A stretch of DNA of 64,000 nucleotides from Isoetes taiwanensis (Eukaryota; Streptophyta; Lycopodiopsida; Isoetales; Isoetaceae). Position 1 is the stretch's first letter. Every line of letters begins with the position of its first letter. The translations under genes and the position numbers were made by a program. The DNA lies in NCBI GenBank assembly GCA_021234155.1, contig JAJEKV010000053.1, forward strand, positions 6,044,488 to 6,108,487, in the 5' to 3' direction. Positions 1 through 39,200 of this stretch are shown here, in pieces. Below the pieces are notes generated by a model, which worked only from the letters and a program-made list of their open reading frames with translations, was not told the DNA's origin and searched no databases.

Positions 1-222
1 TGCGTACGGTACAACATTGCAAGTAACCCTCGTCCATTGGTTTCTTTCTTCTTTGTGATGTACAAGCTTTCTTGTGTAAGTCTCGCTTAAGGTTTTCACT
101 AGCAGGAGCTTTGAATTCGAACATAGAGTCATGTCGCTTTGCTACATCGTCGTCTGAGAGATCAACATCAGGTGTTTCTTCGTCCGACATGGGAGGAATG
201 GATGATATACTAGTAGATGCTG

Positions 223-1404
223 TGATAACACACCTAGGGGATTAAGGGATAACATAATTTTTTTTACTCTTAACATCAGGTCAGAAATATTTAAAAGAAT
301 TGCAATGGTTGGGAAACAAATTGAATACGAATGTCTATACTAAGGTACGGTAGATATCTGAGGAAACTATACTAAGGTACGATAGATATCTGAGGAAAAT
401 AGAGGTAATATCTGAACTAAAATAGCATATCTATGATTAGAGGAGATAAACTAGATAAGAATTTGTAAGAATAGGAAGATATTTCTTATAATTGAAAAGG
501 AGAGGATATTTTTCTAATTTTAGAAAAGACAGATAGCATAAAAAAAAGGCAAACTTTAAAACATGATAACTCGGCGAACGATTATCAGAATGGAGCGATC
601 TTAAGCATCCTGGAAAGCCCTCGGAGTCTAGTTTTAGAATTGGGGTGACACTCTCATAACTCCTTACGGTTAGAGAGATATCGCAGAAAAGGTGGACATG
701 GGTCAGATAAGACTGCACGTGGAAGATCCTTTGGTGGGTAGCCGAAGCCGGATCTTTGGAGTTTCTGTTGGTTTGGAGTCATCTTTTTTTTTTGTTTAGT
801 AGTTTGTTGAAAAGTTTACATGTATTATTTTGTTATTGATTCTTTGTGTTTGTGTTTGCAAATATAATAAAACATTAAAGAATGAATCTGTATGAAAGAA
901 CCCGCCCCTTTGTCGTTGCCGAAGGGCTGGGCGGTAAAGCAACGTGCATACCAGGTGATTGATATGTGAACGTATAGTCATGTCCAGAACGATATACGTG
1001 TGAACCCGGGTGAGGGATTGATCATCCCTGAATCACAGTAAGTTATAAGAAGATGTTCTATGTGTGACTAACATTTGTGTGCCTATTGTCTGTGTGACTA
1101 ACGATTCACCTCAGGTTAAGGTAATAGTTTACCCGCTTAGTCCTTCCCAGGACTAATCCCACCTTTCTCTTCGTCCTTCTTACAGAAGAGTTAGTAGCGA
1201 AGTGAGTTTTGCGCCACGAGAAGGGTGGGATAATAGCCAAGATGTCAAGGCATAGATCTTCTAAAGACTAAAAGTAGTTTGAAACTCGGATTTTGAGTGT
1301 CAAGGACAATTGTTACCTCATAATAAAAGAAAGTTATATATTATTTTAGTTCCAATTACTTCTCTGTTTGATTTTCAAGTGTTAAACGCCTTAGGAGCGT
1401 TTCA
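223..1404 (+). repeat. Left LTR of the 223-3006 element
   Basis: Direct repeat of the right copy at 1826-3006. It starts TGATAACACACC and ends GTTTCA immediately before the tRNA primer-binding site. Small minus-strand ORFs inside it recur in the partner LTR and are not genes. Confidence 0.85.
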
Positions 1405-1825
1405 TTTGGTATCAGAGCCTAGGTTTCCGATTATTAACCATAGTTGGTTATTGGGCCAAAGACCATTAAAAGTCATCAATATTGAAATTATGGGAAACCA
1501 AGAAGGAAGAAACTCCTTGGGAAGTTATGCAGCCGAGACATCTATCGTGGCCAGCAACGGGAAAAGGGAGAGTTCAAAATTTAGTTTCCATATTGTAAAC
1601 CTAGTACTAACTGTGAAATCCCCAAACATTAGTAGTCATCCAAATTAATCTTAAATGTTGTAGTGGTAAGTGTAGTCAACCCCGAAGGGTATATGGAGTG
1701 GAACATAGTTTTAGATATGTCTTGTACCTTGGATATCTTGGTTCATCTACAGAAATTAATGACTTGCAAGGAATTTACAGATTATCCCCATGAGGACATG
1801 GGTAAATTTTTAGTATGAGAGAATA

Positions 1826-3006
1826 TGTAACACACCTAGGGGGTTAAGAGATAACATAATTTTTTTATAATTAACATCATGTCAGAAATATTTAAAAGAA
1901 TTGCAATGGTTGGGAAACAAATTGAATACGGGTGTCTATACTAAGGTACGGTAGATATCTGAGGAAACTATACTAAGGTACGGTAGATATCTGAGGAAAG
2001 TAGAGGTAATATCTGAACTAAAATAGCATATCTATGATTAGAGGAGATAAACTAGATAAGAATTTGTAAGAATATGAAGATATTTCCTATAATTGAAAAA
2101 GAGAGGACATTTTTCTAATTTTAGAAAAGACAAATAGCATAAAAAAAAGGCAAACTTTAAAACATGATAACTCGACGAGGGATTATCAGAATGGAGCGAT
2201 CTTAAACATTCTGGAAAGTCCTCGGAGTCTAGTTTCAGAATTGGAGTGGCACCTCTCATAAGTTCTTACGGTTAGAGAGATATCGCAGAAAAGGTGGACG
2301 TGGGTCAGATAAGACTGCACGTGGAAGATCGTTTGGTGGGTAGCCGGAGCCGGATCTTTGGAGTTTCTGTTGGTTTGGAGTCATCTTTTTTTTTTGTTTG
2401 GTAGTTTGTTGAAAAGCTTACATGTATTATTTTGTTATTGATTCTTTGTGTTTGTGTTTGCAAATATAATAAAACATTAAAGAATGAATATGTATGAAAG
2501 AACCCGCCCCTTTGTCGTTGCCGAAGGGTTGGGCGGTAAAGCAACGTACATACCAGGTGATTGGTATGTGAACATATAGTCGTGTCCGGAACGATATACG
2601 TGTTAACCCGGGTGAGGGATTGATCATCCCTGAATCACAGTAAGTTATAAGAAGATGTTCTATGTGTGACTAACATTTGTGTGCCTATTGTCTGTGTGAC
2701 TAACGATTCACCTCAGGTTAAGGTAATGGTTTACCCACTTCGTCCTTCCCAGGACTAATCCCACCTTTCTCTTCTTCCTTCTTACAGAAGAGTTAGTAGC
2801 GAAGTGAGTTTTGCGCCGCGGGAAGCGTGGGATAATAGCCGAGATGTCAAGGCATAGATCTTCTAAAGACTAGGAGTAGTTTAAAACTCAGATTTTGAGT
2901 GTCAAGGACCATTGTTACCTCATAATAAAAGAAAGTTATATATTATTTTAGTTCCAATTACTTCTGTGTTTGATTTTCAAGTGTTAAACGCCTTAGGAGC
3001 GTTTCA
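1826..3006 (+). repeat. Right LTR of the 223-3006 element
   Basis: Starts TGTAACACACC and ends GCGTTTCA, then passes directly into the proline-rich repeat gene. It is the same unit as 223-1404 with scattered substitutions and one base fewer. Confidence 0.85.
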
Positions 3007-3599
3007 GGTTGGGTGTGGGGAGGTCTTGGATGGAACTGATTTGCTCTCTCTTGGAAAAAGTAGTCGAGGTTGGTGACATATTTGAGCTCCTGAAGTGTCA
3101 TAAAACACAGGAGTTGCATGGCACTGACTGCTCCCACTAAGAGTAGTATCAGGTAGCGCGACGGATGGTGATGGAGTGACTTGCGCCCGGGGAGGCTATC
3201 TATGCTGGACTAAGGGAGACGGACTAAAGCAAACTAAAGGAGGGAGTCTGAGCTCGTCTTCGGGTGGTGGAGTGAACTGAATGGGTGGAGGAAAGTTGCG
3301 CTGTTCTGTGGGATATGTTGGAGTAAAATGCATTGGTGGGGGCAAACGACGTTCAAAAGCAGGAGATGGTGGAGTAAATTGCACTGATGGTGGAAGACGA
3401 CGTGTACAAACGGGAGGGCTGGGGCAATGAATGTCAGAGTCAGAAGTATCCTGGCTAGCATTAGCTTCTGAAATATTCGTAATAGGATTAGCTTCCATTG
3501 CCATTGGGCAAGGTGTGAAAAGCATGGGAGGAGGGAGCCTGCGAGCAGGACGGGGTGGCTTAGACGCTCTCTTTTCTCCGGCCATTATGAGCAAGTAGA

Positions 3600-3712
3600 C
3601 TCAGACAGTATAAATTTATACCGTGTGGTATAAATTTATATGAAATAGAAGCATAACTGGTGATGGACTGGTATAAATTTATACAGAGATGGTATAAATT
3701 TATATGAGACCA
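3600..3712. repeat. Palindrome cluster between the divergent genes (four copies)
   Basis: Four copies of the palindrome family GGTATAAATTTATACC and close variants occur just upstream of the minus-strand gene start. The same motif fills three introns of the neighbouring methyltransferase gene and was not noticed elsewhere in the window, which links the two divergent genes. Confidence 0.8.
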
Positions 3713-3833
3713 GGGATAGGTTCAATACGCTGTACGTTTTATACGGAATACGTATGAATTGTATGGTACGGCACATATTTGCCGTATAAAACGTAAAAAA
3801 TACGGCAAAAAAAAATTCCGGCGTCAGAAGATT

Positions 3834-3915
3834 TTCGCGTACGCGAAACCTTCTAATTCGCGTACGCGAAAGTTTTTTCGCGTACGCGAAACAGTGAAAA
3901 TCGCGTACGCGAAAA
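3834..3915. repeat. Four copies of the palindrome TTCGCGTACGCGAA
   Basis: Four near-perfect copies of a CpG-rich palindrome with TCGCGTACGCGA core are spaced about 20 bases apart. Degenerate relatives (CACAGACGCT..., GGAAGGTTTC...) continue to about 4350. It lies between the divergent starts at 3585 and 4653, so it may be regulatory, a structural repeat or a mobile-element remnant. Confidence 0.75.
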
Positions 3916-4039
3916 ATATATATATATTTTTTTGAAATTCAAATTCCGGCGTCACAGTCGAAACCTTCTGATTCAGCAGACTGGAAAGTTTTTCAAAGTC
4001 GCATAAAAGCGGAAGGTTTCACGACGCTTAAAAATATAA

Positions 4040-4154
<115 letters not shown>

Positions 4155-4596
4155 ATTCAAATTTCACAGACGCTTGAACCTTCATTTCAGCGTGGCGAAA
4201 GTTTTTTCACAGACGCTATTACGGAAGGTTTCGTCTGTGAACCCCCAAAAAAAAAAAAAAAAAAAACAGAAAATTGTTTTATCGGCTTTGCCATTGGGCG
4301 ACGCGAAAAAAAAATTGGGCAGACGCTTTCATCGAAGCTTACAGACGTCTGTAAATTTTTTTCCTACCATGAGGTTTTTATCGTTAAATCGTATTTTATT
4401 AAAAATCGTATTTTTGACTTTATCGTCCGTGAATTTTAATTTTTAATGATAGAACCTATCCCTGTATGAGACCGTATACGGATCGCTATGGAAAAATGCT
4501 ATACGAAAACATACATAGCAGAAGTACTTAAGGGCGGCGGGGGCGCGTCCATTTCATGTATATGCTGTTTAGATTCGAAGGCGCTCGCGATCCGCC

Positions 4597-4604
4597 TTAT
4601 ATAC
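4597..4604 (+). promoter_or_regulatory. Probable TATA box of the methyltransferase gene
   Basis: TTATATAC lies about 50 bases upstream of the first ATG (4653), in an otherwise GC-rich stretch with no competing upstream ATG. Spacing fits a short 5' leader. This is inferred from sequence only. Confidence 0.5.
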
Positions 4605-4660
4605 TCGCCCCTATTTGCTCCTCCGAACAACTATAAGCAAGTCTATACAGACATGGCCAA

Positions 4661-5366
4661 GTAAGTCTCCAACCTGAACCTTTTTAGTTCTGCATTTCTT
4701 TCAATCTCTTTACTGTGCTTCTGTCGTCTGTCTATTCGTATGATTTAATACCGAGGCCTCTCTCCCTTGGTATACATTTATACAGAGGAGGTGATCTCTC
4801 AGTATAATTTTGCCTCGGTATATATTTATATTGAAAGAACAAGAGCGGGATAAATGTATCCCGACAGAGGCTCAAACAGTATAAATTTATATTGTGAGAA
4901 CTCTTGCGGTATAAAACTCTTGCAGTTCCCTCGCGGCCTCGCGGTATAAATTTATACTGACTCGGTATAAATTTATACCGAGAGAGTTCTGCAACGGTAT
5001 AAATTTATATCGTTTGTGCACGGGCGGTATAGAATTATACCGCTTGAGCCTCTTTCGAGATAAATTTATCCTGTCCGTGTTTTTTCGGTATAAATTTATA
5101 CCAAGGCAGAACTCTCGCGGTATAATTTATACCGAGAGACCGCCTCCTCTGTGTAAATTTATACCAAGGGAGAGAGGCCTAAATAATGGTATGAAATCAT
5201 ACGTTTTTGGATAATAGTGGTGTGTTTTAGAGGCTAAAGCCACCGAAAAGGGTATAATAACTCCACATTGAGGTCCTTTAAGGCGCCATTTCTAGGACTA
5301 TAGTTAGAAATGTTGAGATAAATTCAATTTTCGTGAAGTTAAAGAGTTATTTTTATGGCTTTTCAG
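4661..5366 (+). repeat. Intron 1 filled with GGTATAAATTTATACC-type palindromes
   Basis: Between donor GTAAGT (4661) and acceptor TTTTCAG (5366) there are about 14 copies or variants of the 16-base palindrome, roughly every 15-35 bases from 4769 to 5164. They are separated by short GC-rich spacers rich in CTCGCGG and GAGGC. Some copies have symmetrical shortenings (GGTATAATTTATACC), suggesting that the palindromic symmetry itself is kept. Confidence 0.85.
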
Positions 5367-5708
5367 CACCAAGCTTGTCTTTAAAGGCAAAGGTCAGCAG
5401 TCGTCTGTGAAGCCACAATCCTATGAACTGAAGGGTGTTACATGGTACGTGCACAGGGGAGCGAGAGAATGCTACCCCACTGACGTGTACCTGTACCTGT
5501 GCAATAAGACAGGAAGGGAGAAGTTCAAGCCTGAGGATTACTACCCCGCAGGCGAAATGACAAGCTTGACATCCACACTAAACGAGAACGAGATAGAATG
5601 AACTGTGTGAACGATGAAGGAGACATCGAGTACATTCTGAACAACAGAATGTTTCGAATTAGCATGTGCAAGCCAAAACGAGTACATCTCGGAAAACAAC
5701 AAGCTTGG
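5367..5708 (+). pseudogene. Methyltransferase gene exon 2, N-terminal module
   Basis: The first half reads in one frame (KGVTWYVHRGARECYPTD, ending KFKPEDYYPAGE). The second half reads in the frame containing GDIEYILNNRMFRISMCKPK, so a small indel lies near 5550. The exon ends in phase 0 at GTATGT (5709) and joins GATGTAGTAGAC at 5801 to give AWDVVDILSLVTLCDE. I cannot assign the domain; a chromatin-reader-like beta fold is possible but unsupported. Confidence 0.6.
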
Positions 5709-5800
5709 GTATGTAAGTGTGCGTTGTTCCTTCTGTTCTTCATGTCTTCTCCGTACAAAATTTATACTGACATCGGACTAATTAATCATCCTTACTATAG

Positions 5801-6465
5801 GATGTAGTAGACATTCTATCTTTAGTGACTCTTTGTGACGAGCGTGTTATGGTCAAAGGCTTGTGGTACCCACGTGCTAAGGAGGACGTGGAGAAAGAGA
5901 GCGAGCTGGAAGAGGAGGAAGAGGTGGGAATGAAAGGGAAGGGCAAGAGGAAAGCCCTGGTTTTGAAAACACAGGCTACGAAGAAATACAGAACCACAAA
6001 GGCCTTGACAATCGAGGAGTCGGCAGAAGCACTTCAAAAGGCTTCTGGGGTCGATATTGTTTTGAAACCCTCAGACAGATCAAGTGCTATCCTAAAAAGG
6101 GTTAATGAGACAAAGCTTTTGAAGCAAACAATATCATTGACACTGAGCGCGATCAAGAGGCCACCAAAAAATGAGGATGGGGTCAGAGTGGTTCAGGTGA
6201 GGAAGTTGTACGCGGCACATGTGGCTATCCTGAAGAGAGAATGCGAAGAAATCCACATGCACATGTGTCTCACTTGTTGTTATGGTAGGTAGAACGCAGG
6301 TCCAGGAGCTCAGGCACTACAGGAAGGCTGACTTCGAGGACTACACTTATTATGTACTTGGTGGCACACACAGGAAAGAGCTATCTAAAGAAGAAAGCAT
6401 GAACGAGGTCTAGAAGACCAGTGGAAACCCATATATACATGGAGTTGACAGACGAAGAGGCTAAA
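5801..6465 (+). pseudogene. Methyltransferase gene exon 3, 5' part: linker and ParB/Srx-like segment
   Basis: The frame is open from the acceptor at 5800. A Glu-rich stretch and a Lys/Arg stretch (KGKGKRKALVLK) lead to VRVVQVRKLYAAHVAILKRE. After a frame change near 6265 the sequence reads VSLVVMVGRTQVQELRHYRK, then YTYYVLGGTHRKEL. The small residues and GG-x-HR pattern resemble the nucleotide-binding core of ParB/sulfiredoxin-like domains, which in phage and bacterial proteins are often fused to DNA methylases. A second frame change follows near 6400 before IYMELTDEEAK, at which point the retrotransposon is inserted. Confidence 0.65.
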
Positions 6466-7219
6466 TGATACGGAGCGGCTCGGGGGAGAGGTTCAAGGCA
6501 CAAGGATCCAATGGCATGGGCATGGCTTATGGAAAGAAATAATAAATTGACCAAAATATCTTTGTTACTAAATTGTTGTGAACTGGCTGATAACGGCGGT
6601 CGAAATGGCAGTCACGAGTTACAGCCTAAAACCTCCCGGACTTGATCCAGAACTATTCTAAACAGATCGTCTCCACCATATAGGCTACCGGATTCCTTGA
6701 ACGTGCTGGGAAAAGGGATGATCCAAATAGAAAAAGGCAAATCTGCAACCGAAATTATCCTACCTATTCTTGGCTGCCTTTTCATGAACCAAATCTGTTA
6801 AAAGGGGAAAAAGGACCGTCCATCAATCTGTATAAAGAGATGCGAAATCCTGCATTGAATCCATCTGATCCCAGCCTAGCTCAAACTACCGCCTCTGATT
6901 GTAGCATCGACCCCTGCTCTGAACTTGTATTCCCGCCAAAGCCTTCTGAAAACCTTGCCATAGCCACTGCTGCCAGAACAAATTCCCAGGCAGACTTGCT
7001 GCTTCAGGGGACATTGGATCTTTGTTGCACACAAGATAGCGAATTCTTGTGCTTGGGCCCGGTTGGGTGGTTTGAAAGTGTGCTCCTATCAGTTGTCCAG
7101 GCATTGTGCCGGTTGTTTATCTCTGATTAATATAATCTTGATCTCTCTTGTTTACTCTTTGCATCAGTGTTGAATATAAACTGGGATTTTACTTCATTGC
7201 AATATCTTCATTCGTATCA
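6466..7219 (+). repeat. Left LTR of the gag-only element
   Basis: 754 bp, TGATACGG...CGTATCA. A TATA-like TGTATAAAGAG near 6829-6839 could be the promoter; a 96-codon ORF starting just after it is shared by both LTRs and is unlikely to be a gene. Confidence 0.95.
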
Positions 7220-7260
7220 AGTGGTATCAGAGCCTAGATTCTATTTCCATATCCTGTGCA

Positions 7261-8469
7261 ATGGCCAACCGCTTTAATATCTCTGATCAACAGTACCAGC
7301 AGGCATTAAGAACTGCGGATTTTATAGCCAAGCAAATTGCTAATCAAATTGCTTTGCCACCGCCTACATCTGAGCAAGATTATCAAACCAAGTTGGAGCA
7401 AATAGCTTTGCTTTACGGATTCTTACCTAGCAATTCCCAGCCTCCACTTCCAAATCAACCTCCACCTGTTAATCCGCCGCCGCCTACGAATTCCCCGCCA
7501 AACTCTCCAAATCCAGTTAATGCTTCTGCCAGGATTAAATGGCTGCAGAAAGTGGAGGGCATGCCGACTTTCTCAGGGGAAAAAAGGAGTCGCCCTACAG
7601 TCATGGGATTCTTAGCTGCATGGGAAAGTTTTTTTGAACGAGTTGGAGCCACTGAGTTGCAGAAACTTCAGGCAATGGATAAATATCTTACCGATGTAGC
7701 CCGAATTTGGTGACAGGGAAGGAAAAGAATGGCCCCAGTGATTAAAATATGGCAGGAATTTAAAAGAGCCTTCGAAAGCCATAATTTACCTGCAAGCTAC
7801 TTTGTAGACCTCCTAAGGGAATGGGATATATTCACACAAGGAGAACGAGAGTCTGTTTATCAGTACACAAGCAAATTTAACCATCTGTCGGTTCTAATGG
7901 AAGGTCTCAGTGATAAAGAGTTAACAAGGAAATATATTTCTGGGTTAAGGGATGAGTTGTATGCAGAACTCAGGCTCATTGAACTCCAAACACTGGACGA
8001 GGCGGTACGGAAAGCCGAAGCCGCAGAAAGAAAGTTTAATCCCAAGGGAGCCAAATATGACATATGGGAAGGTTACCCCCGGGAAAATAATGGCAAGCGT
8101 GACACGGATAAGGCGAGCAATAACGGAGCAAAAAGAGTTAGATTCAACGATGATCGTAGAGACTCGAATAACAGGAACAGGGGTCCAGAACAGCGTATGA
8201 CTCAAGAACGGGCAAATGCACCAGAAAGAGGTTGTTATATATGTGGTGGACCTCACTTCAAAGCTTCTTGCCCAAAAAGGCAGACACCTACAGACAAGCC
8301 TCAAACTGAAATTGAAGTTCCCAGGAGCAAGGAAGACAAAGGAAAAGTGTTAATGCATACTATTGCAGAAACATCTGACAGTTCTCATGGGAAAGCTGAC
8401 AAAGCTGCTGACAAAGCTGCAGTCAGGGAGTTTGAAAGAAGTCGATTAACTATCGGTCATTTATCTTAG
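7261..8469 (+). pseudogene. Retrotransposon gag (Ty3-type) with one in-frame stop
   Basis: An ATG 41 bases after the LTR opens a frame of about 400 codons, interrupted once by TGA at 7711. The N-terminal third is Gln/Pro-rich (PPPVNPPPPTNSPPNSPNP). The middle has the conserved retrotransposon gag core (WQEFKRAFESHNLP, then REWDIFTQGE). The C-terminus is basic and carries one zinc knuckle of the C-x2-C-x3-H-x4-C form (CYICGGPHFKASC). This is the particle-forming RNA-binding protein. No protease or polymerase follows; the remaining 400 bases to the right LTR are non-coding. Confidence 0.85.
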
Positions 8470-8872
8470 TTTGGTTTGAGTTTTAGTAGGTTATGCATAG
8501 CTATTTGAATGTATGAGATTTTTTTTTGAATAAAATGAAATTTTTATTGTTTCCTAGTGGAAGGAAACTATCTTTCTTGTTAGAAAGGGATTTACTTTCT
8601 GCCCGAGTAGGGGGGGACAACCTACTTGGAATATCAGAAAGGGCTGGGAATGCCATGACTGTTCAAGTGAGGGACGCCTACTTGAAGGATCAGCATGGAG
8701 ATTTTTCTGTCCAAGCGCGGACCCTGCCTTGAAGGATCAGAAAAAGAACATTTCCAGGGAAAAGAGATTGGCCTTAAGAAGGGAAGGACCAACACACCTC
8801 TTTTCATGACAAGGGTTTTCTTTCAGGGTTATAGAGCGATCGAGGTCGATCGACTGAAAGAAGGGAAGGACC

Positions 8873-9626
8873 TGATACGGAGCGGCTCGGGGGAGAGGTT
8901 CAAGGCACAAGGATCCAATGGCATGGGCATGGCTTATGGAAAGAAATAATAAATTGACCAAAATATCTTTCTTACTAAATTGTTGTGAACTGGCTGATAA
9001 CGGCGGTCGAAATGGCAGTCACGAGTTACAGCCTAAAACCTCCCGGACTTGATCCGGAACTGTTCTAAACAGATCGTCTCCACTATATAGGCTACCAAAT
9101 TCCTTGAACGTGCTGGGAAAAGGGATGATCTAAATAGAAAAAGGCAAATCTGCAACCAAAATTATCCTACCTATTCTTGGCTGCCTTTTCATGAACTAAA
9201 TCTGTTAAAAGGGGAAAAAGGACCGTCCATCAATCTGTATAAAGAGATGCGAAATCCTGCATTGAATCCATCTGATCCCAGCCTAGCTCAGACTACCGCC
9301 TCTGATTGTAGCATTGACCCCTGCTCTGAACTTGTATTCCCGCCAAAGCCTTCTGAAAACCTTGCCATAGCCACTGCTGCCAGAACAAATTCCCAGGCAG
9401 ACTTGCTGCTTCAGGGGACATTGGATCTTTGTTGCACACAAGATAGCGAATTCTTGTGCTTGGGCCCGGTTGGGTGGTTTGAAAGTGTGCTCCTATCAGT
9501 TGTCCAGGCAATGTGCCGGTTGTTTATCTCTGATTAATAGAATCTTGATCTCTCTTGTTTACTCTTTGCATCAGTGTTGAATATAAACTGGGATTTTACT
9601 TCATTGCAATATCTTCATTCGTATCA
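8873..9626 (+). repeat. Right LTR of the gag-only element
   Basis: 754 bp, nearly identical to 6466-7219, directly followed by target duplication CTAAA at 9627-9631. Confidence 0.95.
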
Positions 9627-9895
9627 CTAAAGTCATTGACGTAAGCTACAACCTCAACAATAACTTCAGGTTGAAGATGCTGAGCCTTATAGATAAGATC
9701 CGCTTCATGCACAGAGAGTATGCCGAGTTCAAACAAATGCATGGAGAGGACTTCACGAAGCAGAAGAACAAGCTCCAAGAACTTTGTGAGGCCTGTGTGA
9801 CTGAATGTTGGCTGAGCTACAATTCTGATAAGAATCCCCACATGGCAGTGAAGCAGTAAGATAACTACTTTCAACTTGCTTTCAGAGATGGCCAA
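9627..9895 (+). pseudogene. Methyltransferase gene exon 3, 3' part, plus a possible 10-base microexon
   Basis: From 9632 the host frame continues with VIDVSYNLNNNFRLKM, then a charged helical stretch, to HMAVK at donor GTAAGA (9856). A 30-base candidate intron ending TTTCAG leads to the 10-base segment AGATGGCCAA (9886-9895), followed by another donor GTAAGA. Joined to 10309 this reads KQDGQVWDLQEGIF with no stop. A 30-base intron is well below usual plant size, so the arrangement may be a relic. Confidence 0.6.
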
Positions 9896-10308
9896 GTAAG
9901 AACAATTATAGCCTTTACTTTCCTTTCAATTTAAGTTTGTTTCCACATCGTCTAGAACATGTCGATCAGATGGAAACCAACGTGCCTCCAGTATAAATTC
10001 ATACAGCGGCCACTGCCGCTTGAGTTCATACCCTGGCATGGAGCGGTATAAATTTATACCGTGGCATGGACTGGTATAAATTTATACCGTGACCTGGAGT
10101 GGTATAAATTTATACTGGTCCATGCCACGGTATAAATTTATACCACGGCCTTCAACGATATAAATTTACACCGTTGTGTGGACTCATATAAATTTATACC
10201 GCGGCCTGAAATGGTATAAATTTATACCGTGGCCTGGACTCTGACTCTAGCATCGTTGTACCACAATAGGCCATTTGCACTGAGCTACTTGTCTTCAACT
10301 TTTAACAG
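9896..10308 (+). repeat. Intron with about eight GGTATAAATTTATACC palindromes
   Basis: From 9990 to 10228 the palindrome or a variant recurs every 26-30 bases, often separated by spacers like GTGGCCTGGA. The intron ends at TTTTAACAG (10308). The regular spacing is tighter than in intron 1. Confidence 0.85.
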
Positions 10309-10754
10309 GTGTGGGATCTACAGGAAGGAATATTCTGTATATTCGAAGATGGTGAACTTAAAGAGCAAGCCAGCACCGCTGGAAAAAAACCAAAAAAAAA
10401 AAAAACTGAAATAAAATAAAAAAATATGAGCATAGTACCATGGACACAACTACAGGGCCTGAAGAGCAAACAAATTTTTGTGCGGCTCTTAGAAAAAGTT
10501 GTGGCCAAAGAATTTACTCTCCATGAAATGGCAAAGGAAGCTAAGATGTAAGCAGCATTTACTATGTAATGTTCTTTTTCCCTTACTTTGCCTTACAATC
10601 TCTTTCTCTTTGCAGTCAGAAGGATGTTGTCACCTTCCAGTCCAGGTTAATGAAGCAACTAAACCTAGAAGACTGGGAAGAGTGCAATCTTCTTTATCCA
10701 ACTTGTACGACAAACAGCATAATCAGAGAACACGCAGTGAACTTCAGTGGTTAG
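10309..10754 (+). pseudogene. Methyltransferase gene, two middle exons (10309-10547, 10616-10754)
   Basis: The first exon reads VWDLQEGIFCIFEDGELKEQ, a Lys-rich run over an A-tract with an in-frame TAA at 10417, then SIVPWTQLQGLKSKQIFVRL and HEMAKEAK to donor GTAAGC at 10548. The second starts after TTTGCAG at 10616 and restores phase (KIQKDVVTFQSRLMKQLNLE). It ends exactly on a TAG at 10752-10754 before donor GTGAGC. No named domain was recognised; the region is helical and charged and connects the ParB-like part to the methylase. Confidence 0.6.
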
Positions 10755-10813
10755 GTGAGCTTTGTAGAGAACATGTTTTGTCTTCGTGCCTTTGTCTTAC
10801 TGTTCACTTACAG

Positions 10814-11256
10814 AACAAAAAGAAAGGCCTGCCAGCAGGCTTTTTAAACCTGGTTCGGAGGGCCAAAGAGGAACGGCAAAGACTGAAGGCCATTGAACAG
10901 GAAAAGCAAGTCGCGTCAAGCAGCTTCAACAATGGCTATGAAAGATTTACTACATTTGGCTAGGGCTGCTTGTACAAGATTGTACAAGGTGACTGCACTA
11001 GGTTGGGGATTGTGGTGGACAAGCAGAACTTCACATTGTGTATAGTTGACATTCCATACGGCTTCAAGATTAAAGACAGCGCCTTCGATGATGAGGCTTT
11101 CACACATGTGCAAGTACGAGCTTTTTTGGATGGCCTGAAGGAAGTCACCCTGTCAGCAAATTGGCGGATTATTATTTTTCACTCCGACCTGCAGACAATG
11201 TCAGTGCTCAAATCAATTGGAGCAGTCTGCAATGCCGGCTTCGAAAACTGCATTTA
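10814..11256 (+). pseudogene. Methylase domain N-terminal half with motif IV (DIPYG)
   Basis: The exon opens after TTACAG with NKKKGLPAGFLNLVRRAKEE. It then contains an in-frame TAG at 10961, followed by LYKIVQGDCTRLGIVVDKQ and the catalytic-type motif CIVDIPYGFKI. This matches the D-P-P-Y-type motif IV of amino-methyltransferases, with Ile at the second position. A Rossmann-like stretch follows (SANWRIIIFHSDLQ). It ends at donor GTAAGC (11257). Confidence 0.75.
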
Positions 11257-11494
11257 GTAAGCTTTACATTCCTTCACATTCTGGAATCCTACGGTATAAA
11301 TTTATACCGCGGATGCCCTGCGGTATAAATTTATACGCCTGTTGCCTTGGGGTTAAATTTCTCGCCAGAAACTTGCGTTTAAACTTATACCCTGGTGTCT
11401 TGCGGTATAAATTTATACCATGAGAACACTGGCCGTATAAATTTATACCGTTTGCTTATTGCTTTTAGCTTACAATTTCTTTTTCTGCTATCAG
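11257..11494 (+). repeat. Intron with about six TATAAATTTATA palindromes
   Basis: Perfect and degraded copies of the 16-base palindrome lie between 11291 and 11450, spaced about 28 bases. The intron ends at CTGCTATCAG. This is the third intron of the gene to carry the repeat. Confidence 0.85.
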
Positions 11495-12177
11495 GCTGAA
11501 GACTAACGTCAAAGGTCATGGTGGTGGTCTGCGTTTAGTCAGCTGCTTTGAGCACTTTCATATAGGATATTACAGCACGGACACCAAAAACACCATGGTG
11601 CATTTTAATACACAGAATGAGAAGTCTCCGCCATGTAATGCATTCCAATTCCCAGTTGTCTTGCAAAAGCTGAGAGACCCACAGAGACAAGGCGATGTGG
11701 TGTTCCACTACCAAAAGCCTCAAAGGCTTATTAATAATCTAATACAATGTTTTTCTCGCCCGGGGGACTGGGTTCTAGACGCTTTTCCTGGAACTGGCAC
11801 CACCGCGATTTGTGCACTTAAGCAGGGACGTAATGTGGTGTCAGTTGACATAGACCCAGATAAGATCAATTTCATCAGGACCAGAATAAGTTCCTATGAG
11901 TCCTTTCCTGATGAAAATGAGGAATTGGGAGCAAAGAATGGTGTTGGGGATGTTAAAGGCACCTACACAGAAATCCAGACTCCAATCACGGGAAGAAAGG
12001 ATGAGGAGGTGGGAGTTTGTGGATCTGGAACCAGTAGAGCTAGAGCCCGTCAAACAGCTTGTTCTAATAACATTAGAATCAGAAGCAGGTGTCTCTGGCT
12101 TTGTGGCCTCTCAAAAAACAGATCCAAAGGGAGACGAGAGTCCTGTGGACTGGGAAGAACCACCTCCCCTCATATAA
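11495..12177 (+). pseudogene. Methylase domain C-terminal half with SAM-binding motif I, and acidic tail
   Basis: Reads LKTNVKGHGGGLRLVSCFEH, then DVVFHYQKPQRLINNLIQ, then the SAM-binding loop DWVLDAFPGTGTTAI (motif I, 11769-11813) and SVDIDPDK, the acidic turn that binds SAM ribose. Having motif IV before motif I is the beta-class order. Between about 11900 and 12010 the frame shifts; the C-terminal tail then reads FVDLEPVELEPVKQL and ends WEEPPPLI at 12177. Confidence 0.75.
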
Positions 12178-12249
12178 ATTTAAACATACGTTTCAATTTT
12201 AAAATGTTGGTATATACTTTTACGAGTATTGCACTACATTTTTTATAAA

Positions 12250-12714
12250 CTATGTACAAAAGGAATATAATATATTCATGTAAGATTTTTGAAAATGGAA
12301 GCTTGGAACTGTATCTTTAACAATGTTTAATTAGAACAACTTTTTTTGCTACATAATTTCTTCTTCTTCTTTTTTAAGTTCCACTTTAATAGCATCTGCA
12401 TTAATTATGCAAAAAGGCACTTTAATAGCATCTACATTAATTATGCAAAAAGGCACACTGTATTTGTTGTATTTTCATCAAAAAAAATTTGCTGGATCTC
12501 CAAAATTAGAGTTCTCCTCCTCAAAATTATTATTTTTTTTTTCATGCCTTTTTTTTTTCAAATCAAATAGCTGTAAAAATGTTACTTTTTGTGGGGTATT
12601 CTCAACACTATGTGCTCAACAATCTATCTTGCTCCATATTTTGTCTCTTTTTTCAAATTTTCAGAATTTACAAAGGAATCTTTCAAATGCACTTTTTAAA
12701 TAAGTGTGTTTCAT
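12250..12714. other. AT-rich intergenic, no gene seen
   Basis: Downstream of the methyltransferase gene. It contains a short tandem duplication (GCAAAAAGGCACTTTAATAG-type, about 12385-12455) and T-rich runs. No coding, RNA or mobile-element signal was recognised. Confidence 0.6.
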
Positions 12715-12987
12715 TTAAAACCTTGTTAGATGGCTAATTGCTTCAAAGAATGTCTGATGCACACAATAGATAAGAACTAGGTTCAGATCAGCTTCTGGTA
12801 ACCCTAGGTTAACCTGTATATAGCCCCCTGCTTTTGCCTCTTCCTTATAGATGGCTACTGCCTCCTGCAGATTGAATACGTGTTGATTTGCTGGCCTGAT
12901 TGGAATCCCTTCAAACTTCGTCCAAGATTTGTTCAGCAGCTCGAGGTACATCGACCTCTGCCTTTCTTCATTGGCCCACAAATCGCG
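12715..12987 (-). pseudogene. Unidentified protein fragment (about 90 codons)
   Basis: An open minus-strand segment with protein-like composition (SWTKFEGIPIRPANQHVFNL, YIQVNLGLPEADLNLVLIYC). It has no convincing start and is preceded by a stop. It lies tail-to-tail with the methyltransferase gene. Probably a remnant of an older gene or mobile element; I cannot name the family. Confidence 0.3.
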
Positions 12988-15820: not shown

Positions 15821-17723
15821 GGCTTCTGGTAGTGGACTACGACGCTTTCTTCAACCTAAGAAGCTTGGCCAGCAGGAAATAAAGAGGCTAATTGATCCAA
15901 AAAAAAAAGAGGCAGTGGATAGACAGGTTGCTAGATGGTTCTATCATGACCACATCCCGTTTCGTGTTGCTAGGTCTGATTTTTTCCAGGCTATGGTGCA
16001 AGCTATTGCAAGTTATGGGCCAGGTTATGAGGCACCTAAATATGAGGATATTCGCACAACATTCTTGGAGAGGGAAAAGCAAACTATGCATGAACTTTTG
16101 TCGGATATTAGAAGCCAATGGGCTGATTTTGGAGTCACCCTCATTTTTGATGGATGGACGGATAAGAAAGGGCGTCACATTGAAGGTTCAGTTGCCTATT
16201 GTAGAGGCAAAGCATATTTCCTCATGTCTCATGACATATCTGCTTCAGGAAAAGGGGCCTCAAATTTAGCATCTACATGGAAAGAAAGCATTTTATATGT
16301 GGGTGCACAAAATGTTGTGCAAATTGTATGTGATGGAGAGAATGCCAATCGTGCAGCTGGACGTATTATTGAGGCGGAGTTTCCTCATATCTTCTTTTGC
16401 CCATGCATTGCACATTGTCTCAATAACTTGCTCAAAGATATTGGCAGCCTACCTGAAGTTGCGGATTTGGTGCAAAAAGGAAAGTCTTTGGTTACATTTG
16501 TGAATGGGCACACATCTACCCGTGCACACTTTCAAAGGCTCACACTTGCAAATCACAACGGTAAGACTTTGCTAAAATATTGTGAAACTAGATTTGGTTA
16601 CAATTTCATCATGCTTGAGAGATTGCATGATTTGCATTGGGTGTTGAGGTCATTGTTTGTTGATGATGTCTTTCGCAAGAGTCCACCTGGACGCTCTGCT
16701 GCAGGAAGGGCATGTAATGCTATTGTTTTTGATGATGCATTTTGGAAGAAGGTTAAACATCACTTGGAGGTTGTAGAGCCAATTGTTTTGATGTTGCGCC
16801 TTGTTGATGGAAATGATCCATGCCTTGGTAAGGTTTATGAAGGGCTTGACAGGATGAATGAACATATTATGAAATTGGAGAAGGATGCAACAAAAGCCGC
16901 GGAGTTGGTGGCAATGTGCAATGAAAGATGGAATAAATATGAGTCCCCAATTCAAGCTGCTGCATTTTACTTGGATCCTGAGTTCCAAGGACAAAAGCAA
17001 TGGACGGATCCCGCTATCTCGAGGCACTTTAATGACGTGCTTAACAGGATGGTTGATGATGCTGATAAGAGATTGAAAATAAGAGAGCAATATGCAATTT
17101 ACAAGAAGAAAGAGGGGAGTTTTGGAACCTCGGATGCGCAAGCGGCTCGCTTTAAATTTGCATCCGCACTTTGGTGGGAGGAATATGGAGGGGATACACC
17201 TGAATTGCAAGCAATGGCGGTTCGCATTCTTAGCCAAGGAGCGGCCTCCTCTCCACTTGAGAGGCTTTTTAGTGTCTTTTCACATGTGGCAAGTAAGAAA
17301 AGGAATAGACTTCTTCCATCAAGAACATCGGATTTGGTATTTGTAAGTGCAAATTTGAAATTGATTCAATCTCATAGGCAAGTGAGAAGAGAGCCTTATA
17401 TTGGCTTTGCAAATAAGGCATCTCTTCCAGAACCACAAGAATGGAATGATGATGATGGGGAAGAGCAAGAGGTAGATGAGCAAGTACTAGTGCAAGAGGT
17501 GGATGGCATGGGATTGGCCCTTGGCAATGAGAATGAGATTGATGTGGAAGAAGAGGAAGGAGATAATGATGACGATGGCGATGATGACAAGAATGATAGT
17601 GACTATGATGTTGAGGAAGATACGGATGCAACTTGTTACGTCTCGCCGAATTACATTCGTTCTTCACAACCAAATGTTCGTTACAGGGATTCTGGCACGA
17701 ATCCATATTCCATGCGTTACTAG
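15821..17723 (+). CDS. hAT-superfamily transposase, long open 3' exon
   Basis: An uninterrupted frame runs from a probable splice acceptor (AATCCAACAG, 15820) to TAG at 17723; the first internal Met-bearing frame starts near 15915. Features in order: basic stretch LIDPKKKEAVDRQVARWFY; DUF659-type core with IFDGWTDKKGR (first Asp near codon 78); VCDGENANRAAG (second Asp); CPCIAHCLNNLLKDIG; and the C-terminal hAT dimerisation domain SSPLERLFSVFSHVASKKR (from about codon 445), holding the catalytic Glu. An acidic tail of Asp/Glu runs follows. The N-terminal BED zinc-finger exon expected for plant hAT proteins was not found upstream. The catalytic residues look intact, so the copy may be recently active or domesticated. 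Confidence 0.85.
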
Positions 17724-33247: not shown

Positions 33248-36200
33248 TTACTTTATCAAACATGTTAAACACATACCATCTATGGTTGCGCCATTCACAA
33301 ACTTATCAAGCTGGAACCTATCATTCACATCCAACTTATATTTATCTGTCTTTGGGTCATATGTCAAACATACAAGTGAGATGATCGATTCAAGTTCAAT
33401 AACTTGATTATCGGTCAAGTCATAAGTGAACCATGTGCAACCCGGCGTCAATTTTTCATGTTCAGCATACCAAGCAAGGTTAAAATGTACATTGTATGTT
33501 GGTCTGTCACTCAAATCAATAGGTTCTCTACTCTCTTTCCATATATTACCCACTTTTCGTCTCATGCTCAGCACCCTACCTATGTACCAACCTTTATGTG
33601 TAATCCTGCTCGCACATATTTGCTTTCCTTTTCTAACTGAACGTTTTCCTTTTTTTATACTCACATCTTCTTCTGGATCTATGTCAAAGAGCACAGCACA
33701 ATCCGAACCAATTCCTATTGATGTCACTGCATTTATTTTCTTTTTGGATGACGTCAAATATGCTTGACTTTTCACCCTAGTTAATCTATCCTTAGAAAGC
33801 CAAGGATTACAATTCAATTGGCTCACCAAAGTGGATTTACAAATCTGTTTTCCATCTATATTCACTCTATAATCAATCTTCATATCATTAGGGAACTCTG
33901 TCTCATCCAACATCTCATCAAACACATGCCTTAGCTCTGATTCTGCAGCCACCTCTTCACTCTCTTCAATGTCATAATGATCATGTCCAAGTTCTATACT
34001 TGTCTCCACAATATCTGTCTCATCCCCTATATGGTTGCTCTCCAACTGTGTATAATAATCAGGATGAAAGTAATCCTCATATACCCAAGGCATGTCCCAC
34101 CAATTCCTTCCATTTTTTTTACTGCATACAATTCCAACTGCACTGCACAATTCTTGAGCAATTGAAAATCCTTCTTTTAAAGCATCCACTAACTTGGAAT
34201 TTGTGCTTATAAGCTCATAATTGGAGAGATCACAAACTATTTCTTTTCCATCCATGTCAACTTTCTTTTCTAGCTCTTGCCAAATATGTTCCTGTTTTGC
34301 ATGTGCCTTTGGGAAAAGCAACTCTGACAAACTTTGAAATTCAGCTACACGATTCAATGCACTTGAACTCTCTAGCAAATCTGCTCCGCTGTAACATCTT
34401 TCATTTCTCACCATACCTCCAATTTTGGAAAAGAAATTTTCACAAACATCAGAGCCTGTAGATTCTAATGGAACAGCAAGATGCCCAAAATTGTCTCTAA
34501 AATATGTAATCAATAGCACAACATAGTGGCATGAGATCTGAATGTCCATAAAAGTTTGCTGAACAAAATTTTTGGATATACAGTGTTGATCATGATCTAT
34601 TAGCCACAACCTCCATAACCTAACACATATATTAGTTCATGTTAATTGGGTATGTTGTTTGCTTCCTTAAAAATAACATGGAAAATGCTAAATACATATT
34701 CAAAAATACCTGAAGAAAAAAGAGACAGTTGAAGCAGCTTTAACTCGATCACGCAAACCCATGGTAGGTGATAGAAAGATGTCAATATACAGTGCCACCA
34801 CTGAAAGATATGTTTCCGTACCTAGGGTTCTCATTGGTGGGCCATTCAAACCGTTACGAAGCTTTTGTAGACACATTTGTACTTTCCTAGATGCAATGCG
34901 TTGGGCTGCTCTCCAATTCTGCCTGTCTTTTCTTTCCACATCATTCAACTCTAATCCATGTTCACCTTGACAATTATCAAAAACATGCCAGACATCATTC
35001 AAAGTTACAAGGTCATTTCCAAGGTATAGTCTCCTTGATGCATTATCCATTGGGTTTATGAGTTTTTTTCCATTATGAATGAAATCCTGATCATGCAACC
35101 CATATATGCTTCCATCTTCCCTTATACTTGCATTGAAAATCATTCCTTCCCATGGTATGGCATAGCAACAATTCTTGCCTTTATGTGATGTGTAATCTTG
35201 GATCATGCAAGCTCTACGTCTTGCATCCCCGTCAGATGCATGTCCTATTAGTGGCCCTATTATGGATCTTAGATGAACATCCCATAATCTTAATATCTCC
35301 TCCCATTGAGATCTCACATAAGTGTGGTCAAACCTATTGCAAGTCAATTGCACTACCAAAACTAGCTTTGGCAACTTCACATGTAAAGGGTTAACTATAA
35401 GCAATGACATTCTTTTCAAAAGCTTGAACAATGTTATTATAGCCTACATCACTGGAGCCAACATATACAACAAATGATGCATCGCATTTGTGGTTTTCCT
35501 TGTTACCACAAAAACCAATCAAGCAATCATCTCTAGCAAGCCAATGAATTGATTGCTTGACCACAGTCTCATCCTCGGCTACTATTACTGGTACACTGCC
35601 TTGTGACAACTGTAATTTGTGCATATATTTCATGTATGTCTTTCCAAGATGAATAAAAGTTTGTTCTTGTATGCCAAGCTTATAGACAAAACTTTTTCTT
35701 GTAGATCTTCGGGTCGTAAAAATGCTTGGACCAGCAAAATTGATGGACAAGAAATTATGCATCCTAGTGCCTCCCCATATTTTAATTGTTTCAAAAAGTG
35801 CCTTTGTAGTGTCAGTGTATCTTTTGCTCTGACCTGGCCGAATGATATTCCGTGCAATATCTGTAAGAAAAGTCCACAACCCTTGCCTCCCATCAAACTT
35901 ACCTAGACGATGAGCCTCTACTATATCATGGCAGAACTTTTGCACATCTTTACGGTTCATAGATTCTGCCAAAGTCCCATGCAAAGATCTTGCCCGCATT
36001 GAAAGTGCAAGAGCTCTTTGTTTACTGAACCATAACTCTCTCTTTAACTTCCTTACCTCCATCCTTGCCGTTCTAGCTAATTTGGCTATTTCAGTATTTG
36101 TCAAATACTCTACTCTAATCCCTGTCTCTGTGCTTCTCGTACCCCTTGCCTGTTTACCTTCATGTTGTCTTTGAACCCTCATGTGAAAATCCTTTTCCTT

Positions 36201-39200
36201 GGGAATAGAGGCACAAAATGAGCATTGCAAATTCTCGAAACACTTTCCATCATTTGAAATCCTTGTACAATTGACATGCCTAAATGTCCCTTTAATTTCA
36301 ATAATTTCTCCTTTATATTCAAGCCTACCCTCCAACTTAGGCTCACAATACCATTTATTTCCAGCTTTGGATTCGTCCAAGAATGGTCTTAAATCTCTTA
36401 GAGTGTTGCCGTAACGATATTTCATTTGGTAGAATCCCCAACATAAATATGGTAAACATGGTGACTCTGAAAAGCATAGAGTAGGCTACCATTCTAGAAC
36501 TTTCTTGTAAACTTGCAAATATACTTAAAAAATATTGCAAAATGATAGTAGACTTACGAGTGCTTGAAGTCGATGCCACTTCCTTTGTTTCGGATGAAGC
36601 ACCTGCATGTTATTCCATAATGTTAAATGAAGCCTATGGAACTATAAAAATGTAGTACACATTTGTAATTCCATAATCGCATCGATCCGAGACATCGGAT
36701 CGCCATTCTAGAATGGGACGAGCATGCATGTCATGCATGCATGCGGGCGGCGCATGCCCGTTTTGGGTTGGGAGTTCGCTATTTCAGGCGCGTTTCTGCA
36801 TCCACGTCTCATCGGCGCTTCCTCTTCTCTCAGCAGTACCTTATTCTCTTTGAACCCACCCTCCCCCCCTTCTTTGTTTATTGTACAAGTTCTGTTTATC
36901 ATGTTTTTCCACCCGCTGGGTGATGCTTTTTTTCCACCCGCTGGGTGATGTTCTCGTTTGTTGTGTTGGTGATGTGCAGGTACAGGTTGGCGAGCGGCAT
37001 CCGTTTCGACTTCTCCATGCGGGGGTTTTTTGGGAGCGATTCTATGCCTTACGTTTGTCTAAGCCCCTTGCCGAAGGCTTATCACTAGGGTTTTTCCTCG
37101 AAAACCCGAAAGGGCGGGGTTTTTTAATCCCGGTGATAAGCTTTCGGCAGGTACATCAGCCACTCATCTATTAGCATTGTATTTTTTTTGGGGTCCAAAT
37201 GATATAATTGGATTTTCCCTTTATTTTTCGTGGGTAGTTTGCATGTGTGCGGCTACCCACTGTCCACCATTGTAGAAAATCTGCTGAGATGAATGAGAAG
37301 CCTATCTATCGGGCGCTTTGTTGGTTTCTTGCGAGTCCCATTCTAGAATGCATGTTAAATGTTATTCCTTAATGTTGACGAGGCCTGTAGTTCCTATAGT
37401 TCCTATAGTGCTTATAGTACATTCCATAATTCCTATAGTAGTCGACAGTGAGTGTTATTAAAACTATAAATACACATTGCAAAAGTTAAACCCCTTGGGT
37501 TAGTATTGAAAATTGTTTTAAACCCTTCGAAAGTAGAATCTCACAGATAGAACCTGGTGCCGGATTGGACATAGGAGTGCCGGATTGGACATAGTGAGTG
37601 CCGGATTGGACAGACTTGTTGGATTAAACTACTACTTGCTGTGAATGGACAGACCTGGAGTGGCCGGATTGTGGTGGTCGGACCAGGCCTGGTACTATCG
37701 AATACTTGAAAGAACATACACCAATTAGACAATATTTCAACTGAACAACATAGATAAGCTATTCATTCACTATTTCAACAATGGTCAGAATTTAATATTC
37801 AAATATCCGGCTACTACACGAACTTCGTTTCACCATGCCGACATGTTTCCGACCTTGGTATTCACCCCTTAATCACGTCCGATCAATCTGCTAGTCATTC
37901 TCGTGTCCAATTTCTATTGAACCGTAATCCATAGGCATAGTCATGCTGCATGTTTATTTGAATAGCTAGTCTAGTAAGATAGTAAGGTGTCCCCTAAACA
38001 AAGAATATTACATGAATCTTGATCAGTGCACCTTGAACTAGCTGTAATTCCTGTGCATTTTTCCTGTATAATTCTCACTACTATATAAGACTATATAATC
38101 GATCCACAAAGACTTTATGACACTCAACGATGCCCAAATGAACAGTGCTTTTGTCTATGTGAACATTGCTTTTATCCAATTTAGTGAGTTCTAGGAAGCA
38201 CCAGCAAAACTTAAACCACTTTGGCAGTCTTGAATATGCCACAGAAAACATGCTGTAAAACCTCTGAATAATGGAAAGTGAAACGTCCATGCTAAAAACG
38301 CAGAAAACCTCTGAATATAGGAAAGCAAAACATGCAATATCCAAATAAACCAAGTAAACAGACATGGATCAACAGAACTAAACCAAGTAAACCAAGTAAA
38401 AAAGATTCTTCAGTAAACCAAGTAAACCAATTCTAACTCAATCTTTTCATGCATGTTATAACAAATGGTACCTCGTGTAACGAAAGAAAACAAACTGAGT
38501 TGCTTTGGGTCTGCTACATCCTTCCTTGGACGACCACCAACATTATTTCCTTCCTTCTTTTTGATCTTTTCCTCAAGCGCCATTGCACTTCTGACGTGCC
38601 TGGATGACTTGATGTGCTCCTTTAAATTGAAACAAAGATCACCAGCACGTGGAAACAATGCCAAAGTCTTCAAACATACGCGGCAAATTATGTTTATGTC
38701 ACTTACACAAGGCCCCCAAAAAATAACTCGTATTCATAATCATGATGGAAACCAGTATAATGGTGGTTTTTAGTACATGCAACTCGTAATGTCAATGAAA
38801 ACTAGATGACTTTTATGGTTTTGTAATATCACTACTAGTTAGATCATAGTTTTTTTACTAATTCTATGTCTTACACTAGTTTCTTAAAATTATTGCTAGT
38901 TTAGGAGGTGATTTTTGAGCCTACATTGTCAATATTATAATCTACGATGATTTTACATACTGGTTAGCATGATCAGATACATGGTTTTAACCTAGTTTCA
39001 ATCCTCCCAAGCTTTTCTTATTAGTTCAAGAACCATGTTTAATTTTGGAAGTGTGTTATATGTTTTTGGCACATGCCTATTTATAATGCATGTTAGCAGG
39101 CTATTATGTTGGTTTATGATGTTGTTTTTTATACAGTTTTTTCAATCCTTAAAATCACTACGGACTTTGAGCATAATTTCTTATATGAATTAGTAATTCC

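Follow-up and report, generated by a model that had tools for sequence, protein, structure and literature searches.

Accessory genes that pair a ParB-like domain with a DNA amino-methylase have been described from algal transposons. In the DNA transposon Sola1-1_Ec32 of Ectocarpus, a ParB-like protein with an N4-cytosine/N6-adenine (N4C/N6A) methylase is reported from the strand opposite the transposase, green and red algal cases are cited alongside it (Iyer 2011; Petroll 2025), and proteins of this type are suggested by its authors to attach to the transposon that encodes them and to modify it (PMC12477816). In Arabidopsis, the VANC factor encoded by the transposable element VANDAL21 is described as binding motif arrays and countering silencing (PMC5735166), and the PF01555-type methylase domain is reported to have repeatedly evolved either N6-adenine or N4-cytosine specificity (PMC8885841). 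Here we analyse a ParB-methylase gene in a 64,000-nucleotide stretch of the Isoetes taiwanensis genome (the window; contig JAJEKV010000053.1, positions 6,044,488 to 6,108,487). The gene belongs to a decayed copy of an abundant DNA transposon with terminal inverted repeats (TIRs), about 8.5 kb long, with a 4-bp target-site duplication (TSD) and two divergent genes; the ParB-methylase gene is cargo in its right half and not a host gene.

A methylase gene carried by a TIR transposon

The genome (1.658 Gb, 1,110 contigs) was searched with the methylase exon, giving 148 matches; 147 of 3,365 first-look candidates were scored, so that the counts are lower bounds. Many of these matches are stop-free across their first 182 residues, at 84-90% identity, confirming better-preserved relatives that a sequence-only reading of this DNA had expected in the same genome. 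Ten copies, retrieved with 10 kb on each side, have a common block with sharp ends formed by the inverted repeats AACAAAGTTTAAAATGAAACGCACTTATTT and AACAAGGTTTAAAATGAAACGCACTTATTT. Among ten two-ended copies, the window copy included, eight are flanked by a perfect 4-bp TSD (AGAT in the window; TCTT, TTTT, CCAT, GTTA, ATAG, TTGA and AAAT elsewhere); copies c1, c2, c4, c6 and c9, which lack one end in the stretch, and L037, with a left TIR only, were excluded from this count. Inverted repeats common to the copies and a TSD of constant length identify a TIR (class II) transposon, and the TSD length agrees with that of Sola1/Sola2, which we take to be 4 bp. The exact TIR 30-mer occurs 1,221 times genome-wide (614 + 607; reversed control 0), and among the matches listed there are many convergent pairs about 8.5 kb apart and some about 2.2 kb apart.

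The left half holds a divergent gene matching Pfam DUF7869 (9.1e-43), which in a related family is a single open frame of 987 amino acids (4.4e-51). Its product is presumed to be a DDE-type transposase: candidate acidic residues, picked by eye in VIDGMDQ, QLDNTTREN and GHTHDQID, would fit a DDE/D transposase, and an AlphaFold model was unusable (mean predicted local distance difference test, pLDDT, 32.9). When 147 of the 148 places with a methylase match (one copy being in two pieces, of which the second was omitted) were compared with the 150 DUF7869 places listed, there were 47 neighbour pairs within 30 kb, 45 of them divergent, at a median distance of 6.0 kb, where about 0.8 pairs are expected by chance. 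As in the algal accessory genes, the ParB-like and amino-methylase regions thus lie on the strand opposite a presumed transposase gene. No paper naming DUF7869 was found in a literature search covering non-subscription papers.

The sequence-only reading had seen here a eukaryotic host gene family with decayed members, and the introns, the ATG, the complete domain set and exons under purifying selection do look gene-like. A host gene is refuted for the window copy by its two TIRs and its TSD, features that the other two-ended full copies read also possess, except for the missing TSD of c8; the high TIR count and the divergent DUF7869 partner likewise belong to transposon cargo, and we consider a host family highly improbable. 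An endogenous giant virus was also rejected, the TIR boundaries fitting a transposon; viral genes were sought solely by Pfam, in ten window frames.

Palindrome arrays within the element

The element carries arrays of a 16-letter palindrome, GGTATAAATTTATACC, of which the whole genome has 7,218 exact occurrences (reversed control 0) and 2,394 close pairs. All 27 window matches (up to 3 mismatches) fall between 3607 and 11449, within the element, where 0.48 would be expected, so the intron palindromes pointed out in the sequence-only reading are real and far above chance; the flanks of five copies hold 2 matches in 56 kb. In the elements read, the palindromes lie between the two genes, in their shared promoter, and in the methylase introns, and none of the 23 in copy c8 is wholly inside the methylase coding segments, whose limits were set from open frames. 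Five full elements contain 100 exact GTATAAATTTATAC 14-mers as against 2 other perfect 14-bp palindromes. Across nine elements this core is near invariant and the outermost positions vary most, in a search that permitted only 3 mismatches and so favours apparent invariance. Changes from C to T and from G to A are common at the flanking CpG just outside the palindromes (51 and 34 of 179), which suggests that the host places 5-methylcytosine (5mC) on these elements.

Five palindrome clusters were read from the nine contigs heading the genome list, picked by palindrome before the TIR positions were known. Three of them (C2, C8, C16) lie in TIR-bounded elements of 2.2-3.4 kb with perfect TSDs, in which BLASTN detected no piece of either gene beyond the left end and the array; another (C17) lies in a TIR-bounded 2.2-kb element without a TSD, and the last (C5) adjoins a left TIR, for which the stretch yielded no partner. 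The short non-autonomous derivatives among these retain the palindrome array.

Related families carry related palindromes. An element with a 71% identical DUF7869 protein (L040) has no GGTATAAATTTATACC. Here the DNA from the DUF7869 gene to a divergent frame, a homologue of the methylase gene's N-terminal module (27% over 97 amino acids), holds four perfect copies of a longer palindrome with core GTGTATTCCGGAATACAC. The 18-mer of this sister palindrome has 2,585 sites genome-wide (control 0). Both family palindromes share the arms GTAT...ATAC, and the central hexamer AAATTT is replaced by TCCGGA in the sister family (GTATAAATTTATAC versus GTATTCCGGAATAC); in a third lineage (L041, DUF7869 73% identical), GGTATGAATTCATACC occurs together with mixed forms. 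No site of the sister family (up to 2 mismatches) was found inside the ten copies of the first family, three near c4 lying outside that copy. A changed centre with conserved arms is expected if protein and site co-evolve.

The arrays might instead be a functionless minisatellite spread with the element, and regular 28-32-bp spacing in places, together with partly repeated spacers, suggests tandem duplication. In three arrays of aligned copies, palindrome positions are 92%, 90% and 92% identical and spacers 75%, 64% and 76%, with gap rates alike for both in two arrays. This conservation, the sister family's own perfect palindrome, which differs but retains the arms and the location, and the GGTATGAATTCATACC forms of the third lineage all speak against a mere repeat, which we hold to be very unlikely.

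Another explanation is that the palindromes are binding sites of the DUF7869 transposase, comparable to the TnpA sites of CACTA elements and other subterminal repeats, and that the methylase has other target sequences or only a modest effect. Non-autonomous derivatives need transposase sites alone, and those sampled retain the array; in both families, moreover, an array in the shared promoter adjoins the transposase gene. However, the window copy also has arrays in three methylase introns, the arrays of other copies lie one to several kb from either TIR, and five other full elements have no site (up to 3 mismatches) in their first 3.5 kb, which covers most of the transposase gene, or in their TIRs. 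We rate transposase sites as the less probable function, clearly less likely than not.

The methylase and the ParB-like core

The window exon with motif I matches PF01555 (N6_N4_Mtase), the family against which the sequence-only reading had proposed to check it, at 8.7e-16 and a D12-class methyltransferase at 5.9e-5; the same exon from a stop-free copy matches PF01555 at 8.1e-16. Motif IV (DIPYGF) stands upstream of motif I (DAFPGTGTT; DAFSGSGTT or DAFSGTGTT in ten other copies), and this order, with the PF01555 match and the F.G.G of motif I, supports the earlier assignment to the beta class. The best NCBIfam match is the adenine-specific CcrM (1.1e-11), and the best PDB matches are the adenine enzymes MboIIA (1.3e-8), RsrI and CcrM, the N4C enzyme PvuII being the weakest of 13 listed; because of these matches, the predicted target leans to N6-adenine rather than cytosine. 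By tblastn the methylase found 112 phage and 69 plasmid records, all below 60% identity and the 20 listed of each at 40.5% or less. Scans of viral contigs with the methylase exon and the ParB alignment gave no confirmed relative, and a scan of genome contigs gave two short bacterial matches of 43% identity.

Upstream, the ParB-like core reads YYVLGGTHSYKARKELSKEE...AHIYVGVTDEEAKVIAVSHNLDNDFR in stop-free copies. Aligned by hhalign with a profile of six phage ParB-like proteins, it scored a probability of 69% (E 4.3e-5) over 54 columns with 30% of residues identical. The two profiles stay in register through the G.H motif and the next strand, the region (G.H/G.R motif and strand) in which ParB/Srx-like domains resemble each other. 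The same phage profile set against the DUF7869 alignment gave 0.1% (E 0.52). A PHROG search with the ParB exon returned a ParB-like partition family (phrog_723) weakly, at E 0.0061; of ten phage records matched at E 0.9 to 10, five are annotated ParB-like, and plasmids gave no match. Sequence searches of Pfam, NCBIfam and PDB with this exon found nothing ParB-related: the best Pfam match to its 345 amino acids was a calcium-channel tail over the acidic linker (8.4e-4, below cut-off), and a PDB profile search returned six unrelated chains at E 0.044 or worse. The ParB/Srx-like core proposed in the sequence-only reading is thus supported by the phage profile and finds no echo in these databases, and a ParB identity is likely but not proven.

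The N-terminal module recurs in the sister family (BLASTP E 1e-10 between two copies; L040:5784-6521 (+)). It matched no Pfam family above cut-off, in L040 or in copies of the first family, and may be a chromatin-reader-like domain.

Selection and divergence among copies

Nonsynonymous and synonymous differences (pN, pS) were counted by the Nei-Gojobori method between copies, the window excluded, that had been chosen for a stop-free motif I exon. For that exon pN is 0.022 and pS 0.524, a ratio of 0.042 that is optimistic, as the choice of copies lowers pN. The copies were not selected on the other two exons, for which pN/pS is 0.178 (motif IV exon, counting also c8, whose row is frame-broken, and c3, whose row is partial) and 0.139 (ParB exon; 0.065 in the four longest stop-free rows). 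The methylase exons are under purifying selection (pN/pS 0.04-0.18). For the DUF7869 frame, 7 of 11 rows were long enough, the window not among them, and the ratio of 0.60, inflated by frame-broken rows, falls to 0.45 without c7 and c10 and to 0.35 for c5, c6 and c8; its constraint is weaker than that of the methylase exons, at a much lower pS (0.18-0.24).

When five elements (c3, c6, c7, c8, c10) are aligned, identity between copies is 92-95% in the transposase region and 76-95% in the methylase exons. Frame-breaking indels per kb number 17.5 in the transposase region, 18.9 in intergenic DNA, 7.8 in the ParB exon, 10.0 in the motif IV exon and 0.0 in the motif I exon. Relative to its divergence, the left half is overly rich in indels (0.25 per substitution, versus 0.05-0.10 for intergenic DNA and introns); assembly error might account for this excess. 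The contrast between left and right halves would fit different histories, or trans-mobilisation with a cis-acting methylase.

The window copy and its surroundings

The whole copy from which the window feature derives (G000:C1060:6039323-6057214) measures 17,892 bp (17.9 kb), enlarged by nested insertions, with both TIRs present and TSD AGAT at both sides; the window holds its right-hand part (Table 1). The extent first given to the gene, 4653 to 12177, begins at a plausible ATG, and the feature proves to be a far larger, disrupted transposon copy ending at 12727. Nor do the exons simply join in phase, as had been supposed: a long terminal repeat (LTR) retrotransposon interrupts the ParB exon, and there are stops and frame changes. 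At a divergence K of 0.017 between its LTRs, that retrotransposon inserted about 0.7-1.2 million years ago at assumed plant rates. With a pS of 0.65-0.74 against other copies, nested LTR elements, a hAT-like miniature inverted-repeat transposable element (MITE) and stops, the window copy is old and broken.

Table 1. Features of the transposon copy in the window (positions counted from the first nucleotide of the window; SAM, S-adenosylmethionine)
Feature	Position	Strand	Remarks
Right-hand 12.7 kb of one transposon copy	1..12727		left TIR upstream of window
Divergent left gene, piece (presumed transposase; DUF7869 in other copies)	20..225	-	nucleotide match to c2-c8, c10
Nested LTR element within transposon	226..3006		LTRs 226-1404 and about 1828-3006, 95.3% identical
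Divergent left gene, 5' part and promoter side	3006..3704	-	ATG near 3585, minus strand, by eye
Palindrome array, intergenic, 4 sites	3607..3706		GGTATAAATTTATACC scan
Nested hAT-like MITE	about 3711..4464		CAGGGATAGGTTC...GAACCTATCCCTG; 8-bp TSD TATGAGAC; contains unrelated palindrome TTTCGCGTACGCGAAA
Exon 1, ParB-methylase gene	4653..4660	+	ATGGCCAA, donor GTAAGT; read from sequence
Palindrome array, intron 1, 10 sites	4769..5165		GGTATAAATTTATACC scan
Exon 2, N-terminal module	5367..5708	+	VTWYVHRGARECYPTDVYLYL...; frame broken here; no Pfam family
Exon 3 first part, acidic linker and ParB-like core	5801..6465	+	YTYYVLGGTHRKEL; frame broken
Gag-only LTR retrotransposon in ParB exon	6466..9626	+	LTRs 6466-7219 and 8873-9626, 98.3% identical; TSD CTAAA
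Exon 3 second part, end of ParB-like domain and helical region	9632..9895	+	in-frame stop at 9857
Palindrome array, intron following ParB exon, 8 sites	9990..10228		GGTATAAATTTATACC scan; spacing mostly 28 bp
Exons 4 and 5	10309..10754 (10309-10547, 10616-10754)	+	possible helix-turn-helix region, judged by eye
Exon 6, methylase catalytic motif IV (DIPYGF)	10814..11256	+	open frames, domain search
Palindrome array, intron separating methylase motifs IV and I, 5 sites	11293..11449		GGTATAAATTTATACC scan
Exon 7, methylase SAM-binding motif I (DAFPGTGTT) and C-terminus	11495..12177	+	PF01555 8.7e-16
Right TIR	12698..12727	-	minus strand reads AACAAGGTTTTAAATGAAACACACTTATTT; followed by TSD AGAT; 9 other copies end identically

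In the nested MITE, four palindromes centred on CGCGTACGCG form an array of their own, distinct from the first and in an element of another kind. These TTTCGCGTACGCGAAA palindromes (3833-3912) were considered as part of the system and rejected: they are located inside this MITE, and five other full elements and three short ones lack the core CGCGTACGCG. Beside the element, at 15915-17723 (+), lies a hAT transposase frame of 602 amino acids with DUF659 and a hAT dimerisation domain. Further on, three consecutive long open frames at 33248-36425 (-), of 453, 243 and 344 amino acids and with no Pfam match at 0.001, are possibly another unclassified mobile element, and pentatricopeptide repeat (PPR) genes are also present in the window. 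Elsewhere in the genome, the LEAFY domain (PF01698) was found above cut-off at four places (C907, C1059, C1034, C779), and in none of 14 control genomes; LEAFY has a streptophyte range, in keeping with a plant genome, and four places exceed the one or two usual in plants.

A candidate address for self-methylation

Bacterial ParB binds a 16-bp palindrome, parS, and the ParB-methylase is therefore the natural candidate for a binder here. We propose that the palindromes (core GTATAAATTTATAC) serve as an address bound by a protein that the element encodes, most likely the ParB-methylase, and that the bound methylase would put an amino-methyl mark, on adenine more probably than on cytosine, on nearby bases, so that only address-bearing copies become marked. 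The mark could open chromatin, could keep the element promoter open against silencing by host 5mC, a role comparable to that of VANC in VANDAL elements, or could separate the element from host DNA for transposition, and the palindrome centre and its binding protein would co-evolve as families split. On our analysis, a ParB-methylase transposon that recognises itself by a palindrome address and methylates itself has about an even chance of being right. The fuller proposition, of a plant transposon family with its own sequence-specific amino-methylation, whose ParB-type methylase reads a parS-like palindrome nearly confined to the element, marks all address-bearing copies, the non-autonomous ones included, and swaps the palindrome centre as families split, is more tentative, and we place it somewhat short of even.

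Several observations weigh against this proposal. Sequence support for ParB is weak, with three databases silent on it and an AlphaFold model of the region too poor for a fold search (mean pLDDT 35.1). Motif IV is DIPY in all 11 rows, with one P replaced relative to (D/N/S)PP(Y/F/W), and the lowest of the methylase pN/pS ratios is the optimistic one. Two of the ten two-ended elements, c8 and L036, have no TSD, and the L040 stretch stops short of the methylase and the TIRs, containing the N-terminal module only. As to the arrays, only five of thousands of palindrome clusters were sampled, palindromes of the third array fall in gaps more often than spacers (0.47 vs 0.33), and spacers partly repeated from unit to unit make part of the array a tandem duplication. 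Finally, the palindromes could bind the transposase instead, and both binding and methylation are what we infer.

To our knowledge, N4-methylcytosine (4mC) in eukaryotes is known from few lineages, and Marchantia reportedly has a plant amino-methylase for 4mC. N6-methyladenine in plants is described as disputed (PMC12695648). With an abundant element whose methylase is under purifying selection and whose candidate target site is present in thousands of copies, the question becomes directly testable from long reads.

Comparison with known systems

ParB-methylase accessory genes are already known from algal transposons; the plant host, the DUF7869 partner and the palindrome arrays appear new, since the literature matches listed include no report of a land-plant gene of this type or of comparable palindrome arrays. 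The element resembles Sola1-1_Ec32 as a DNA transposon with an opposite-strand ParB-like/methylase accessory gene. The host of Sola1-1_Ec32, by contrast, is a brown alga, that element is 21.5 kb long rather than about 8.5 kb, and the portion of the article devoted to it mentions no palindrome array or family-specific site (PMC12477816).

The bdelloid N4CMT is likewise a eukaryotic PF01555 amino-methylase and is described as marking transposons, but as a host gene fused to a chromodomain and not borne by a transposon (PMC8885841). In one protein of the Gordonia phage Portcullis, gp82, a region similar to phage ParB-like proteins precedes a PF01555 methylase (1.2e-16), as in the plant gene, although gp82 is 404 amino acids in one frame; a BLASTP comparison of the plant ParB exon with phage ParB-methylase fusions gave nothing significant (best E 0.10).

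The likeness to VANDAL21/VANC, for which the motif arrangement alone was compared, lies in short motif arrays in introns and upstream, tandem amplification, a motif that differs among families, and co-evolution (PMC5735166). In the account given there, VANC differs in that methylation is lost through its action and nothing describes it as a methylase; moreover, its motif is non-palindromic and its elements are of the MuDR type. Should our proposal hold, the Isoetes element would be a second, independent plant transposon co-evolving with its own address sequence, and one that encodes a writer rather than an eraser.

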